Below are positions 2,688 to 38,501 of a stretch of 38,501 nucleotides of DNA, piece after piece. The notes beneath the pieces are model-generated. The model saw only the letters and a list, made by a program, of their open reading frames with translations. It had not been told where the DNA came from and searched no databases. Position numbers and translations under genes: made by a program. Every line of letters begins with the position of its first letter. The stretch's first letter is position 1. Source of the stretch: Klebsiella pneumoniae (lineage in GTDB: Bacteria; Pseudomonadota; Gammaproteobacteria; Eutrophobiales; Eutrophobiaceae); assembly GCA_945870865.1 (NCBI GenBank), contig CAMBTO010000011.1, forward strand, positions 1 to 38,501. Direction: 5' to 3'.

Positions 2688-5681
2688 TCAACCCTCACTC
2701 AACCCTTCACGCACCGATTTACGAAAAGCCCATCGACTGAAGATCAATCCAACCAGGGTAATCACAGTAAACAGCACCACCATGATCACAACCGTCATGC
2801 CCGAGATGGCCAGATGCGTCACCAGATACAACAGTATGTTTTTCACCTGACGCAACTGCCAGACCAGATTGGTAATGCCATAACCGACAATCAACGATAC
2901 CGCGATTCCGATCAGCAAGCCGATATAGGACGGCGCAAAGATTCCGGAGCCGAAGAAGCGCAACATATGACCCGGCCCGGCGCCGCGTATGCGCAGCAGG
3001 CCGAGCGTGCGACGGTCTTCCATGTAGTTGGTATAAGCAACTGAGAGGATGCCGATAATGGCGAGTAACAGGCCACCTATCAGATAGATCTGCACATTCT
3101 GTCGCGCCAGAAAGATATACATATCACTGCCGATCTTATTGATCTCCTGGTCATATGTACGGATATTTGACGGTTCCATCGGCAAGGCCTCGATCAAACC
3201 GGCACTGACTGTTTCCGCATCAAACCCGGGTTGCAGTTGGACGGCGAACTGGACACCGGAGATCAGTACATCCAGGTCCTGGATGGCGGCCGGGTTCGGA
3301 TCCAGCGCGATATAGGCGTTATTGGAAAACAGGTGGTTTACATAATCAACCCGCGCGGTGTCGAATGACTCACGGTCAGTCACTGAGACCAGCGGACTGC
3401 CTGGCAGATACCAGGTAGTCCCGGCGACAGTCGCCTGGACCATGTTTTCGCCGTCTGTCTTGCGACCGAGCTGAGTGGTTTCACCCGGGGCCTTGTCGAC
3501 AAACGCATCGACGGCAGGGGACAGGATGACACCGGCGTTTTTGAGGCCCGAGATCAGACCGGAAAAGGTCCCTTGCTCGGCCAGCGACTCTTCCGAATAG
3601 ACCTTTTCCATATACAGGTCAGGGTCGGGCAGGAAATACAGCGGCAGGCCATTAAAGCCATAACCCGGTATATATACACCATCAGAGACGCCTTCAAACA
3701 GCGTCCAGCTGACATTGCGCACGCCCTCGACCTTCTGCATGGCGTCTATCAGTGCCGGGACCTTTTCCTTGATGGCGCGGTATTGCACACCCACACCGCC
3801 GCTGGCCAGCAGATCATTACTGACGATATCAGAGGCGTTGATCGTCAGCTGGATGTCAGAGCCGACCTGAATACGGGTACCACGCTCAATCTTGTTATCG
3901 AACACCGCCGTCATCACCGTCGGATATAAACCAATCGTGCTCATCATCGCCACGATCAACAGGAAGCCGGCAATACGTTGCGGACGGGTAGAGATGTGTT
4001 TCAGCGTCAGCTGGTGCATCGGTCCGCCTATCATGCCCACTATCAGTTGCAACACGCGATTCATCAGCTGTTTGCGCGATACCAGGAAGGTAACCAGTCC
4101 ATACACGAACAGCGGAAAGCCTGCAAAGTCGAGTGCCTGATCGGCCGTCCTCAACCAGGCCAACTCGCTGACCGAGGCAACGGAGAAATTCAGCATCCAG
4201 GCAATGATCTTGTAACCGCCCAGTGTCAACGCCACCAGACCCGCCACGCCAAAGCGCACGTTGGCCTGGTCGGCCTCCGACTGGACGACACGCCCGGAGG
4301 CCTCCAGCGGCGAGATGGTCGAGGCGTATTTGACCAGCTTGCGGCTGACTGCCAGTGCGACAATCACACCAATCAGGATGAAGGTGAGCAGGATATAGGG
4401 TTGCTGCACAATGAGGATTGTTTTCAACGGCAACATCCCGCCATCATAGAGATACAGCGGTAACAACGTACCGGCTACCGCACCCAGCATGCCACCGACC
4501 AGCGCACCGGCACCGATCGAGATCTGCAAGGCACGACCCATCGTCTTGCCGGAGACACCGCGCAGGCGCATCAGGCCGAATTTACGGCGTTCATTCAGCA
4601 ATAACATGCCGGACAGATTACCCATGAGGATCCAGCCTACCCAGATCAATGGCAGCGCGATCAGCAGGCTGATCAGGCCGACCTTTTGTGCAGTGTCATT
4701 CATGCGCTCCAGCAACACGCGGGTGGAATTGTCGAGAAACACCCGTGGCCCGATCCCGAAGATGCGCTCGTCGAGAAATGCCTGCAGGTTGGTCAGGTTT
4801 TCCAGCGAACCACGTATGTCCCAGCCAGAGATCAGTTTGTCCGTGTCTATCTTCAGCAGATGGATGATGTCAGGAAAATAATTGCCGGCCTCCTCATGCA
4901 CGTCGCCATCAACGTGGGCCGTGGAGATACCGCGTGCGACGGCATCGAAGTTATTTAGCAGTGTCTCGTTATACGGTGTAACCAGGATCGCACCGATCTC
5001 GGGGATCAGTGAGGGCGAACTGGTCTGTTCCATGAACCAGCGGTTCAGGTCGTTGCGCTCTATGCGGATGGTGCGTTCCAGTTCTATATCCAGCACCTGA
5101 ATACTGACCATCTCCTGCGGGGTATCGACATGCTCTTCCGTCGTTGCTGCGGGGTTAACCACCAAAGGCTCATCAAACATATGATGGTTTTCAATCTTCA
5201 GCTCGAAGCGCTTGCGGTTTTGTAACTCTGCATAGGCATTGCCCATCTGCGACTTGGTCCCCACCAGCACCAGTACCGCCTTGCCCTGCATCGGCCGGAT
5301 GTTCAGTGGCAATGTAGACGTGTCAGATACGGTCAGCAGCGACAGCCAGGGCATACGCATCGGTTGCCCGTCGATGTACGCAATGTCTTCAGTGGTCAGC
5401 GAGTTTTTCAGGAACACCAGACTGTTATGGTTGATGATACCGTCTGTGCTGCGCATCGTCCGCGCCATTTCGGGTATTGCGTGTACATCACCGGACTGGT
5501 AGCCGGAGATGTCCCAGTTAATCCTGCCAAGCTGGTCCTCGACATATTTTTTCAGCGCATAACGCGAGGCGATATTGACCGAGGCGAGGATCGAGACAAC
5601 CAGAAATGTGACCAGAGTGAATACCAGAAACGACCGCTTGCCGAGTATGTGGGCGAGATAGATTAAGGTGCTCAGAAACAT
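2688..5681 (-). CDS. Large FtsX/MacB-type ABC transporter permease with two FtsX domains
   Basis: About 997 residues. A membrane segment near the N-terminus (SFLVFTLVTFLVVSILASV) is followed by a long periplasmic domain. A first three-helix FtsX block then starts around residue 340 (VGLISLLIALPLIWVGWILMG, with ERRKFGLMRLRGVSG). More helices, a second large periplasmic domain and a C-terminal FtsX block follow (EDRRTLGLLRIRGAGPGHMLRFF). The paired 'LxxLRxRGA' coupling motifs are typical of duplicated FtsX-like permeases. With the ATPase downstream it should form an envelope ABC system; substrate unknown. The start is uncertain: the ATG at 5681 has a GGGGG stretch close upstream, while a GTG at 5741 would add 20 residues. 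The M29-like gene upstream is separated from it by a terminator-like hairpin. Confidence 0.88.
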   Translation of the reverse strand: MFLSTLIYLAHILGKRSFLVFTLVTFLVVSILASVNIASRYALKKYVEDQLGRINWDISGYQSGDVHAIPEMARTMRSTDGIINHNSLVFLKNSLTTEDIAYIDGQPMRMPWLSLLTVSDTSTLPLNIRPMQGKAVLVLVGTKSQMGNAYAELQNRKRFELKIENHHMFDEPLVVNPAATTEEHVDTPQEMVSIQVLDIELERTIRIERNDLNRWFMEQTSSPSLIPEIGAILVTPYNETLLNNFDAVARGISTAHVDGDVHEEAGNYFPDIIHLLKIDTDKLISGWDIRGSLENLTNLQAFLDERIFGIGPRVFLDNSTRVLLERMNDTAQKVGLISLLIALPLIWVGWILMGNLSGMLLLNERRKFGLMRLRGVSGKTMGRALQISIGAGALVGGMLGAVAGTLLPLYLYDGGMLPLKTILIVQQPYILLTFILIGVIVALAVSRKLVKYASTISPLEASGRVVQSEADQANVRFGVAGLVALTLGGYKIIAWMLNFSVASVSELAWLRTADQALDFAGFPLFVYGLVTFLVSRKQLMNRVLQLIVGMIGGPMHQLTLKHISTRPQRIAGFLLIVAMMSTIGLYPTVMTAVFDNKIERGTRIQVGSDIQLTINASDIVSNDLLASGGVGVQYRAIKEKVPALIDAMQKVEGVRNVSWTLFEGVSDGVYIPGYGFNGLPLYFLPDPDLYMEKVYSEESLAEQGTFSGLISGLKNAGVILSPAVDAFVDKAPGETTQLGRKTDGENMVQATVAGTTWYLPGSPLVSVTDRESFDTARVDYVNHLFSNNAYIALDPNPAAIQDLDVLISGVQFAVQLQPGFDAETVSAGLIEALPMEPSNIRTYDQEINKIGSDMYIFLARQNVQIYLIGGLLLAIIGILSVAYTNYMEDRRTLGLLRIRGAGPGHMLRFFGSGIFAPSYIGLLIGIAVSLIVGYGITNLVWQLRQVKNILLYLVTHLAISGMTVVIMVVLFTVITLVGLIFSRWAFRKSVREGLSEG

Positions 5682-7923: not shown

Positions 7924-10068
7924 GTGTCATTGACCAAACTGAACCTGTATATCCTTGGGCTGGCCTTGACTCTGGGGGCCGCCTCAACTGCAGGCGCACA
8001 GACCCCCGCCACCCCCGAACAGCAAACTACCGACCCGGCGGCTCAACCGGTCCTTCTGGAGAAGGACGTATTCGGCTATCCCGCCGCATTTTTTGACCGG
8101 TTTCGCCCCGATTCCGCACTCGATATGTTGAGACAATTGCCCGGTTTTCGCCTGAACTTCGGCGGTGAGCTACGCGGTTACGGTTCTGATACCGGTAACG
8201 TGTTGATCGACGGGCGTCGGCCCAGCAGCAAACGCGTGACCGTGCCCTCAATACTCGACCGTATCCCGGCCAGCCAGGTTGAGCGGATCGAACTGATACG
8301 TGGCCCGGTTCGGGACATTGAGCTGATGGGTGAGCCACAGGTGGCAAACGTGGTGTTACGTACCGACACCCCGGCGGCCGTACGCTGGTCTGTTGTGGGC
8401 TATCGCAACGCCGATATGCCGCCACTGCCCTGGTTCACGAATATCTCTATGTCGGACCGCTGGCGGGGCATAGACTTTAACGGAGGTCTGGATATATTCC
8501 GCAAGGCATTTAGCGAACGTAACGATGAAGACATCCTGGACGGGAACGGTAACCTGACCGAGGAGCGTTTTGAGCATGGCTACCAGAAGGAATTCGAGGC
8601 CAATTTCGACCTGACCGCCTCGAAATGGGTAGGTGAAACCTTGCTGACCTGGAACTCGCAGATCGGTATTCAGGATGGTGGCGAGAAGTTTGTGTCTGAC
8701 CGCACCCCGGTCGGGCAGGGCACACGTAATGAGCTGACAGAAGGTATCAGTGACGAATTACAGTTTGAGGCCGGGATAACCCTGGAACGCAATCTAACGG
8801 ACAGTCTCTTGGGTAATCTGCTGCTGTTTGCAACACGCGAGGCCGAGGACGCCGCCACAACCCAGCTCAGCATCAATGCCGCCGGGATACAGACTTCCGA
8901 AACGATCAAGGACACCTACCAGATTGAAAAGGAAATGATTGCGCGGACTGAATTTGAATGGTCGGGCTGGGACAGCCACACCGTCAGGCTGAATCTGGAA
9001 GGCAGCTATAACCTGGTCGACAATGAGGAGTTGCAGACACTGGATACCGGGACAGGGCCAGTATCGGTTATTGTTCCCGGTGCAACGACAGCAATCGCGG
9101 AAGACCGTGGTGAATTCCTGTTAAAGGATACCTGGTCGATGGGACAGTATGAACTGGATTACGGCATGGGTGCCGAGGCCTCGAAGCTCAGCCAGACCGG
9201 TGATCCTGAAGTTGAACGTAAACTGTTTTTCCTGAAACCACATGCCGAATTGAGCTATACGCCGTCTGAGGAACGCAAGCTGCGCGTTCGCCTTGCACGT
9301 GAGGTGGCACAGTTATTATTTGATGACTTCTTCAGCGCCAGTCTGTTGCTTGATGATGATGTCTCCCTGGGCAACCCGAACCTGAAGCCGGAAACAACCT
9401 GGGAATCCGAGGTCGGTTATGAACAACGGTTTGGTAGCCAGAGTGTGGTCAAATTGACGTTGTTTCACCACTGGATAACCGATGTACAGGATCTGATCCC
9501 GGTCTCGCTGGATGACGAGTCGCCCGGTAATATCGGGGAAGGCAAGCGCTGGGGTGTTCAGCTCGAAGGTACGCTCCAACTGGGCTGGGCCGGACTCGAT
9601 AACGCGCGATTGAACATCAACTCGCGCTGGCAGGATTCCAGTGTGGTTGACCCGGTCACCGGTCAAGATCGGGTATTAACTACCACAATCCTTTCAGACA
9701 GCAATAACACCCGCAGCATCTTTGATAATGATAACGCCTACGTGGTGGTGCTGGATTTTCGGCAGGATTTTGAAGAGGAACGTGTCGCTTGGGGTTCGGA
9801 TGTCACGTTTGAGGCTGACCTGAAGCAGTTCAAGGTTAACGAGTACGACCTGCGCAAACGCGAACCGGACCTGAACCTGTTTGTCGAGACCACTCGATGG
9901 TTTGGTATGAAGGTACGGGTTGAGTTCAATAACATACTGGACATGAACAAGGAACGTATCCGCACCTTCTACACCGGACAACGCGGCCTGTCACCTGTAC
10001 TGCGCAGACAATTGCAGGACCGCACCGACGGCCGTGAGGTCGGTTTGTCACTGAGCGGCTCTTTCTAG
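7924..10068 (+). CDS. TonB-dependent outer-membrane receptor (subfamily copy 1)
   Basis: About 714 residues. A signal peptide (LYILGLALTLGAASTAGAQ) is followed by a plug domain containing ALDMLRQLPGFRL, GNVLIDGRRPSSK and RIPASQVERIELIRGPV, then a beta-barrel ending in Phe, as outer-membrane barrels do. I chose GTG at 7924 (MSLTKLN) because CTGGAGA lies 10 bases upstream and the signal peptide then starts correctly; a GTG at 7873 would add 17 unsupported residues. It is clearly paralogous to the receptor at 20443-22569 (same plug motifs, same VVDPVTG and HHWITDV motifs in the barrel). Its divergent neighbour is the secreted M29-like protein. The ligand cannot be read from the sequence. Confidence 0.92.
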   Translation: MSLTKLNLYILGLALTLGAASTAGAQTPATPEQQTTDPAAQPVLLEKDVFGYPAAFFDRFRPDSALDMLRQLPGFRLNFGGELRGYGSDTGNVLIDGRRPSSKRVTVPSILDRIPASQVERIELIRGPVRDIELMGEPQVANVVLRTDTPAAVRWSVVGYRNADMPPLPWFTNISMSDRWRGIDFNGGLDIFRKAFSERNDEDILDGNGNLTEERFEHGYQKEFEANFDLTASKWVGETLLTWNSQIGIQDGGEKFVSDRTPVGQGTRNELTEGISDELQFEAGITLERNLTDSLLGNLLLFATREAEDAATTQLSINAAGIQTSETIKDTYQIEKEMIARTEFEWSGWDSHTVRLNLEGSYNLVDNEELQTLDTGTGPVSVIVPGATTAIAEDRGEFLLKDTWSMGQYELDYGMGAEASKLSQTGDPEVERKLFFLKPHAELSYTPSEERKLRVRLAREVAQLLFDDFFSASLLLDDDVSLGNPNLKPETTWESEVGYEQRFGSQSVVKLTLFHHWITDVQDLIPVSLDDESPGNIGEGKRWGVQLEGTLQLGWAGLDNARLNINSRWQDSSVVDPVTGQDRVLTTTILSDSNNTRSIFDNDNAYVVVLDFRQDFEEERVAWGSDVTFEADLKQFKVNEYDLRKREPDLNLFVETTRWFGMKVRVEFNNILDMNKERIRTFYTGQRGLSPVLRRQLQDRTDGREVGLSLSGSF

Positions 10069-26752: not shown

Positions 26753-26780
26753 TTCCGGGGCTGTCTGTACAGCCCCGGAA
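26753..26780 (-). terminator. Perfect 12-bp hairpin after bipA
   Basis: TTCCGGGGCTGT-CTGT-ACAGCCCCGGAA, a perfect GC-rich 12-bp stem with a 4-base loop, 23 bases past the bipA stop. There is no T-tract on the minus strand. It most likely terminates bipA or protects its 3' end. Confidence 0.6.
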
Positions 26781-37945: not shown

Positions 37946-38170
37946 ATGTTGATATTGACCCGCAGGATAGGCGAATCACTGATCATAGGTGACAACATCA
38001 ATGTCACGGTCTTGGGGATCAGAGGGAACCAGGTACGCATAGGCGTGAACGCACCGAAGGATGTTGCAGTACACCGCGAAGAGATCTACGAGAAGATCCG
38101 TGGCGAAGGTGGCAGTGAAACCAAGAAGTCTGCCGCGGACGATGATTATGAAGTTGGTTGTCCTGAATAA
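37946..38170 (+). CDS. csrA: Carbon storage regulator CsrA
   Basis: 74 residues. [51 protein letters not shown] is near-identical to well-studied CsrA, including Leu4 and Arg44, the RNA contacts. An acidic tail of about 20 residues extends beyond the usual ~61. It binds GGA motifs in mRNA leaders. Its own leader has AGGGA and GAGGAG close to the start codon, consistent with autoregulation. It stands just before tRNA-Ser. Confidence 0.97.
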
Positions 38171-38218: not shown

Positions 38219-38309
38219 GGAGAGATGGCCGAGTGGACGAAGGCGCTCCCCTGCTAAGGGAGTATGGGTCAAAAGCCCATCGAGGGTTCGAATCCCTCTC
38301 TCTCCGCCA
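38219..38309 (+). tRNA. tRNA-Ser (anticodon GCT)
   Basis: 91 bases with the long variable arm of class II tRNAs: acceptor GGAGAGA / TCTCTCC, anticodon stem CTCCC / GGGAG around CTGCTAA (anticodon GCT), T-arm with GGTTCGAATCC, discriminator G and encoded CCA. Its 3' end is a likely integration site for the element that begins beyond it. Confidence 0.98.
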
Positions 38310-38316
38310 TTTCATC

Positions 38317-38420
38317 ATCCAGTAACGTCCAGTAACATCCATTAGACACAGTCAAGTGTCTGTATTATAAGAAAATATATTCTTATAGTCTCCAGTGAGC
38401 TACAATAACGTCCAGAACAT
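38317..38420 (+). repeat. Short direct repeats next to tRNA-Ser
   Basis: AGTAACGTCC and AGTAACATCC stand in tandem (38321-38340), and a related AATAACGTCC occurs at 38404-38413. Such decamers downstream of an occupied tRNA are typical arm-type sites for tyrosine integrases. No gene is seen here. Confidence 0.45.
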
Positions 38421-38501
38421 TTGAGGGTAATTTTGAGGGTAAAAATTATTTTACCCTCAGTGAAAAATGTGATTCTTACCCTCACATCTGGAGAAGCCCA
38501 T
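38421..38501 (+). promoter_or_regulatory. TGAGGGTA repeat cluster and start region of a probable integrase
   Basis: Four copies of TGAGGGTA occur: direct at 38422-38429 and 38434-38441, inverted at 38452-38459 and 38477-38484. Copies two and three form a perfect hairpin, TGAGGGTAAAA-ATTA-TTTTACCCTCA (38434-38459). A GGAG at 38490-38493 followed six bases later by AT at the window end looks like the start of a gene. Arrays like this precede tRNA-island integrase genes, but no coding sequence is visible, so the integrase is inferred. Confidence 0.5.

Follow-up and report, generated by a model that had tools for sequence, protein, structure and literature searches.

Positions 38310-38501 of the window, the whole 38,501-nucleotide stretch analysed here, are very probably the int-proximal end (attL) of a P4/HPI-type integrative element that sits at the 3' end of a tRNA-Ser(GCU) gene and whose integrase gene starts at position 38500 and runs off the contig. 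The four copies of the octamer TGAGGGTA would then be bound by the arm domain of the integrase (Int) and the RTCC decamers by an excisionase, and Int would probably repress its own gene. The island boundary itself is ordinary, as P4-like elements are found in tRNA genes everywhere. However, the repeats that were left unexplained in an earlier note on this DNA can now be read as the parts of a complete attL, each with a likely role, and a comparison over about 60 relatives yielded a simple rule that relates arm-domain residues to DNA bases in a very large integrase family.

Anatomy of the contig end

The window is the entire contig C11 of its genome (G000), and position 38501 is the physical contig end. 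The tRNA-Ser gene at 38219-38309 (+ strand, anticodon GCU) was called by ARAGORN and matched the Rfam tRNA family RF00005 with 59.5 bits; its 3' end would provide the attachment core and the chromosomal half of attL. Upstream is csrA (74 aa, 37946-38170, + strand), a conserved neighbour which according to tblastn adjoins tRNA-Ser(GCU) in 27 of 28 relatives. The earlier note had based its case for an insertion on tRNA-Arg genes following csrA-tRNA-Ser in many gammaproteobacteria. As this order occurs in only 11 of the 28 relatives and in no genome of the same genus, the absent tRNA-Arg is no evidence of insertion here. The conclusion of a tRNA-Ser-integrated island boundary is nevertheless supported, by the continuation into an integrase gene in a relative and by the same block occurring behind a tRNA-Ser(CGA) gene.

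The region beyond the tRNA gene (38310-38501, + strand) has a G+C content of 35.9% compared to 52.7% for the window, a value reached by only 0.13% of equal-sized stretches. Its first 11 nt (TTTCATCATCC, 38310-38320, + strand) are identical behind tRNA-Ser(GCU) and tRNA-Ser(CGA). In the alignment, the element starts immediately after CGCCA behind both genes and, thus, exactly at the tRNA 3' end. The contig end falls two bases into a start codon, 190 bp beyond tRNA-Ser(GCU).

The repeats and signals that had been pointed out in this region, namely tandem AGTAAC(G/A)TCC repeats, four octamers, two of them in a perfect 11-bp hairpin, and a ribosome site with two start-codon bases, were all recovered. 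The window contains exactly two copies of AGTAACRTCC (38321-38330 and 38331-38340; 0.08 copies expected), and the RTCC core at 38317, 38327 and 38337 follows a strict 10-bp period (38317-38340, + strand; AGTAACGTCC AGTAACATCC). TGAGGGTA is present exactly four times in the 38.5 kb, always after the tRNA gene (0.57 copies expected; 0 of 100 shuffles reached four). Candidate Int arm-type sites 1 (38422-38429) and 2 (38434-38441, 12 bp past site 1) lie on the + strand, and candidate sites 3 (38452-38459) and 4 (38477-38484) are inverted copies on the - strand. The perfect 11-bp inverted repeat at 38434-38459 (TGAGGGTAAAA-ATTA-TTTTACCCTCA) consists of two inverted arm sites, sites 2 and 3. The window ends with the integrase ribosome-binding site GGAG (38490-38493, + strand) and, following CCC, the first two bases of the integrase start codon (AT, 38500-38501, + strand). 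A promoter scan of 38310-38501 revealed no clear sigma-70 promoter. Perfect hairpins of exactly this 11-bp size occur once more in the window, at 26754-26779, where a GC-rich sequence (TCCGGGGCTGTCTGTACAGCCCCGGA) lies between two - strand genes and is possibly a terminator.

Integrase, second copy and far end of the element

As the contig ends at 38501, the next 2 kb, where an integrase was to be looked for, cannot be read in the window's own genome, and this check was made in a relative. In the same-genus genome G004, contig C21 carries the last 220 bp of the window at 98% identity, but behind tRNA-Ser(CGA). It has the same GGAG, continues the terminal AT with a G (ATG CTT AAT GAT ...; MLNDLQVKSAKP) and leads without a gap into the start codon of a tyrosine integrase of the P4/HPI type (IntSXT/P4 cluster; frame MLNDLQVKSAKPKTKPYKLADQLG...). 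The N-terminus of this integrase is an Arm-DNA-bind_3 domain (DUF4102; Pfam 86.9 bits, E 9.9e-25). A model of the domain (pLDDT 88.6) displays the same fold as the arm domains of the Yersinia HPI and HAI7 integrases (PDB 3JTZ, 3JU0 and 3RMP; 44-47% identity), with Z scores of 15.1 and 14.8 for HPI and HAI7 and a third of 14.4. The G004 gene is cut after about 115 codons by what reads as an insertion-sequence transposase, and the two ends of the element are located at different tRNA-Ser genes in this genome. Elsewhere in G000, no close copy of the G004-type integrase was found and no contig continues the int of the window; the integrases on contigs C23, C56, C32, C36, C71 and C76 were rejected as continuations, being at most 40% identical or Xer-like.

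Within G000, the same block also follows tRNA-Ser(CGA) on contig C89, which stops inside the block. Across the 140-odd shared bases beyond the tRNA, the C11 and C89 copies differ at only 2 positions; such near-identity at two tRNA-Ser genes suggests recent movement or ongoing exchange. Contig C11 breaks where the two near-identical copies begin.

The earlier note had also anticipated a duplicated tRNA end. A repeat of the tRNA-Ser 3' end was indeed detected in the same assembly, on contig C81 (locus L010, 640-670), but this contig is not physically joined to C11. The 370 bp preceding this repeat are 98% identical to a region of G004 contig C2, 3.6 kb downstream of tRNA-Ser(GGA), and the two far ends diverge right past the tRNA-like end. 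The far end on C81 carries the arm motif pair TGCGGGTA-AGAA-TGAGGGTA with 12-bp spacing (L010, 565-584); behind it come the first 11 nt of the element itself and a degenerate second tRNA end. This junction has the appearance of a tandem insertion that later suffered a deletion, which is not a full explanation, and the far end may belong to the other copy of the element or represent a scar. Placing C81 as the chromosomal flank of tRNA-Ser(GCU), due to its likeness to the G001 DNA behind tRNA-Ser, was rejected: the stretch also recurs before icd in G001, so that likeness alone cannot place the contig. The element is absent from tRNA-Ser(CGA) in G001, and the flanks in G000 cannot be joined as the sequence beyond the island is unassembled. 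Judged from these alignments, one integrase type occupies two, perhaps three, tRNA-Ser genes within the genus, which is why draft assemblies break exactly here.

Could the repeats instead be a regulatory or terminator region native to tRNA-Ser, with the hairpin as terminator and no insertion at all? A perfect 11-bp hairpin does follow the tRNA gene, and in many relatives a terminator hairpin is located right behind tRNA-Ser. However, the hairpin in the window lacks a T run, is 125 bp distant from the tRNA gene and in G004 stands immediately before int, and the flanks of the four other same-genus tRNA-Ser(GCU) genes each differ. This explanation is very improbable and is refuted by the identical block behind tRNA-Ser(CGA) together with the integrase continuation. 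An assembly artefact, in which a single element of a metagenome bin was wrongly connected to two tRNA genes, would account for the C89 copy and the contig breaks, since C11 and C89 both end inside the shared block as is seen in repeat-broken assemblies. Yet, C89 has a C at AGCAAC, as does G004 behind tRNA-Ser(CGA), where C11 has a T; the two copies are therefore separate alleles, and we regard a misjoin as improbable.

A decayed element, of which only the attL arm and possibly a damaged integrase are left and whose boundary is a fossil, is a more serious alternative, though still an unlikely one. The interrupted integrase of G004 and the resemblance of the C81 junction to a deletion scar would fit such decay. 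Against it, no damage is seen in the four arm sites, the two decamers, the ribosome-binding site, the start or the far-end arm pair, and the two tRNA-Ser copies have hardly diverged. We favour the attL of an integrative element that may be mobile to the present day.

Arm-site layout and probable regulation

To compare the arrangement of arm sites, the loci of about 50 related integrases were collected, and 45 independent loci were analysed upstream of int. An exact 7-mer direct repeat at spacing 12 occurred in 47% of these loci, compared to 0.4% in shuffles, and inverted copies were present in 33 of 45 (null 9.7). A blind search for the layout (GGGTA...TTGNGGGTA...TACCCNCA) in 369 genomes gave 10 matches and none for the reversed control. 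Among the nine matches outside the window's genome, eight had an integrase within 40 bp downstream and seven a tRNA or tmRNA gene 110-250 bp upstream. In contrast, the direct pair of TGAGGGTA alone matched viral contigs 24 times, never with an integrase. Thus, the pair alone is not predictive of an integrase whereas the pair with an inverted copy is, and the layout provides a sequence-only means of finding island ends in draft genomes. Viral contigs did not carry the element's left end, and the integrase relatives found among them were only 36-37% identical. At G151:C4:62524-62571 (L198), two direct and one inverted arm site occur without a recognisable integrase behind, which may be an orphan or decayed end.

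The layout in the window is, by sequence comparison, that of satellite phage P4. In the P4 attP-int record X51522, two arm sequence repeats spaced by 12 bp (3942-3953 and 3954-3965; TTGGGGGCAT etc.) are annotated before int, an inverted one at the int start (3915-3926), and another 12-bp pair on the opposite side of the core. The corresponding parts of the element are the direct pair at 38422/38434, the inverted copies at 38452 and 38477, and the far-end pair on C81. P4 and the element further share an Arm-DNA-bind_3 integrase and a core at a tRNA 3' end. They differ in the arms, which read TGGGGGCA in P4 (Int K40 E47 R49) and TGAGGGTA in the element (R40 E47 T49), and in the target, which is a tRNA-Ser gene for the element and a tRNA-Leu gene, leuX, for P4.

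Other tRNA-associated elements are similar in part. In KplE1/CPS-53 of E. coli K-12, with intS at argW, arm sites and GTCCG-type sites for the excisionase TorI also lie between the tRNA gene and int, although its arm sites are GTGGGTAAAA-like and differ from TGAGGGTA; there, attL overlaps the int promoter, and Int and TorI repress int (PMC2951348). The island VPI-2 of Vibrio cholerae, which is excised from tRNA-Ser by the tyrosine integrase IntV2 with a recombination directionality factor (RDF) (PMC3014918), resembles the element by description in that both reside in tRNA-Ser, the element doing so at more than one gene.

RTCC-RTCC pairs at exactly 10 bp were observed 35 times in the 45 related loci (0.5 expected). 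The operators recognised by RDFs consist of direct repeats spaced by one helix turn (PMC7498355), and the GTCCG-type sites in the attL of KplE1 are bound by TorI (PMC2951348). Based on the family-wide 10-bp pairs and these precedents, the RTCC decamers are probably excisionase sites. Int represses its own promoter inside attL in P4, KplE1 and PAI I536 (PMC2951348, PMC7286903). By analogy, and as the arm sites and the hairpin lie between the presumed promoter and the start codon, autorepression is also likely here.

We propose that the core and catalytic domains of Int would bind the tRNA 3' end and its N-terminal Arm-DNA-bind_3 domain the four TGAGGGTA sites, and that an intasome would form with the matching far-end pair TGCGGGTA-N4-TGAGGGTA of contig C81. 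Int bound at the arm sites in front of its start codon would repress int, while the excisionase of the element would occupy the RTCC decamers, one helical turn apart.

A residue-to-base correlation and further islands

Across the training loci, the octamer was variable at positions 3, 4, 5 and 7 and covaried with the arm domain (Mantel r 0.32, p 0.003), compared to a correlation of 0.09 with the catalytic domain. R49 occurred with C7 in 9 of 9 cases and any other residue 49 with T7 in 20 of 20, K40 occurred with G3 in 21 of 21, and E47 went with G4 and Q47 with T4. Validation was carried out on 32 further loci, none more than 85% identical to the training set. Here, R49 was paired with C7 (7/7) and other residues with T7 (25/25), K40 with G3 (16/16) and non-K40 with non-G3 (13/16), E47 with G4 (21/21), Q47 with T4 (5/6) and R47 with C4 (3/4). 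For all loci together, R49 went with C7 in 16 of 16 and non-R49 with T7 in 45 of 45. These counts apply to what the motif finder accepts, i.e., only octamers of the form NGNN[GA]G[TC]A, and its direct-pair filter let through only 33 of the 96 validation loci.

The rule also held for known integrases. For P4 Int (K, E, R) it predicts TGGGGGCA, which the annotated P4 arms contain, and for K-12 intB (Q, Q, M) it predicts TGTTGGTA, which is present. For E. coli K-12 intA, the most distant case, the arm motif is differently shaped and falls outside the octamer register. For HPI (K40 E47 R49) and HAI7 (S40 Q47 L49), the predicted arm sites differ from those of the element. The G004 integrase has R40, E47 and T49, for which the rule gives non-G3, G4 and T7, and TGAGGGTA fits.

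A tree built from 50 catalytic domains shows nine changes each for R49 and for C7, with agreement in 50 of 50 rows. The best tree contains nine independent pairs, and the five on well-supported branches all agree (p 0.06), so that phylogenetic control of the rule is suggestive but not conclusive. In the model, strands E35-43 and E46-55 place residues 40, 47 and 49 on one hairpin. We consider it somewhat probable, judging from these comparisons, that a general code exists in which the octamer TG-N3-N4-GG-N7-A of P4-like integrases is read by the Arm-DNA-bind_3 beta hairpin. At base 3, G would be specified by K40; at base 4, G, T and C by E47, Q47 and R47, respectively; and at base 7, C by R49 and T by any other residue 49, with TGAGGGTA as the R40/E47/T49 state. 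Specificity would switch repeatedly and independently of the catalytic domain, and the intasomes of co-resident elements would thereby stay separate. The rule itself is correlative. No paper describing it was found in a literature search conducted mostly without subscription journals, and the base-reading rule may be new and the part that a specialist might find so. Part of it may already be visible in PDB entry 3RMP, the title of which refers to recognition of attP substrates by P4-like integrases. If confirmed, arm-site specificity would be predictable from the protein sequence and could be checked against this HPI structure.

Further islands and island remnants were noted in the genus. Another island of G000 is located on contig C23, where a second, complete P4-like integrase (about 401 aa; L012, 220-1370) with TGGGGGTA-type arms lies just after the tmRNA gene. 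Contig C56 (L014, - strand, 1-890) carries an Arm-DNA-bind_3 integrase cut by the contig end with TGCGGGTA arms, and contig C32 (L018, 1325-1750) one truncated to about 140 aa with TTGGGTA arms, in both cases with no detected tRNA adjoining. In G001, tRNA-Ser(GCU) on contig C38 (L050, 5543-5745) is followed by a stretch of about 190 bp that has a repeat of the tRNA end (CCCTCTCTCCGCCA) as its boundary and resembles a minimal remnant of an integrated element; on contig C21, icd is preceded by a similar stretch. On contig C23 of G004 (L049, - strand, 9700-9910), TGAGGGTTT and a pair of inverted CCCTCATC-type copies lie behind tRNA-Ser(GCU) and appear to be the arms of a different, now int-less element. 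In addition, copies of a roughly 120-bp repeat (GTACCCGTTAACAACGCACATTACAGAGTATACGTCAGCTAGGTACCATCAAACC...GGGGGTGCCACCCCGGTGGG) have accumulated close to island ends in the genus; members of this family lie on G000 contigs C81 (L010, 288-460) and C80 (796-970) and on G004 contigs C2 (several copies; L054, 8000-9400) and C23.
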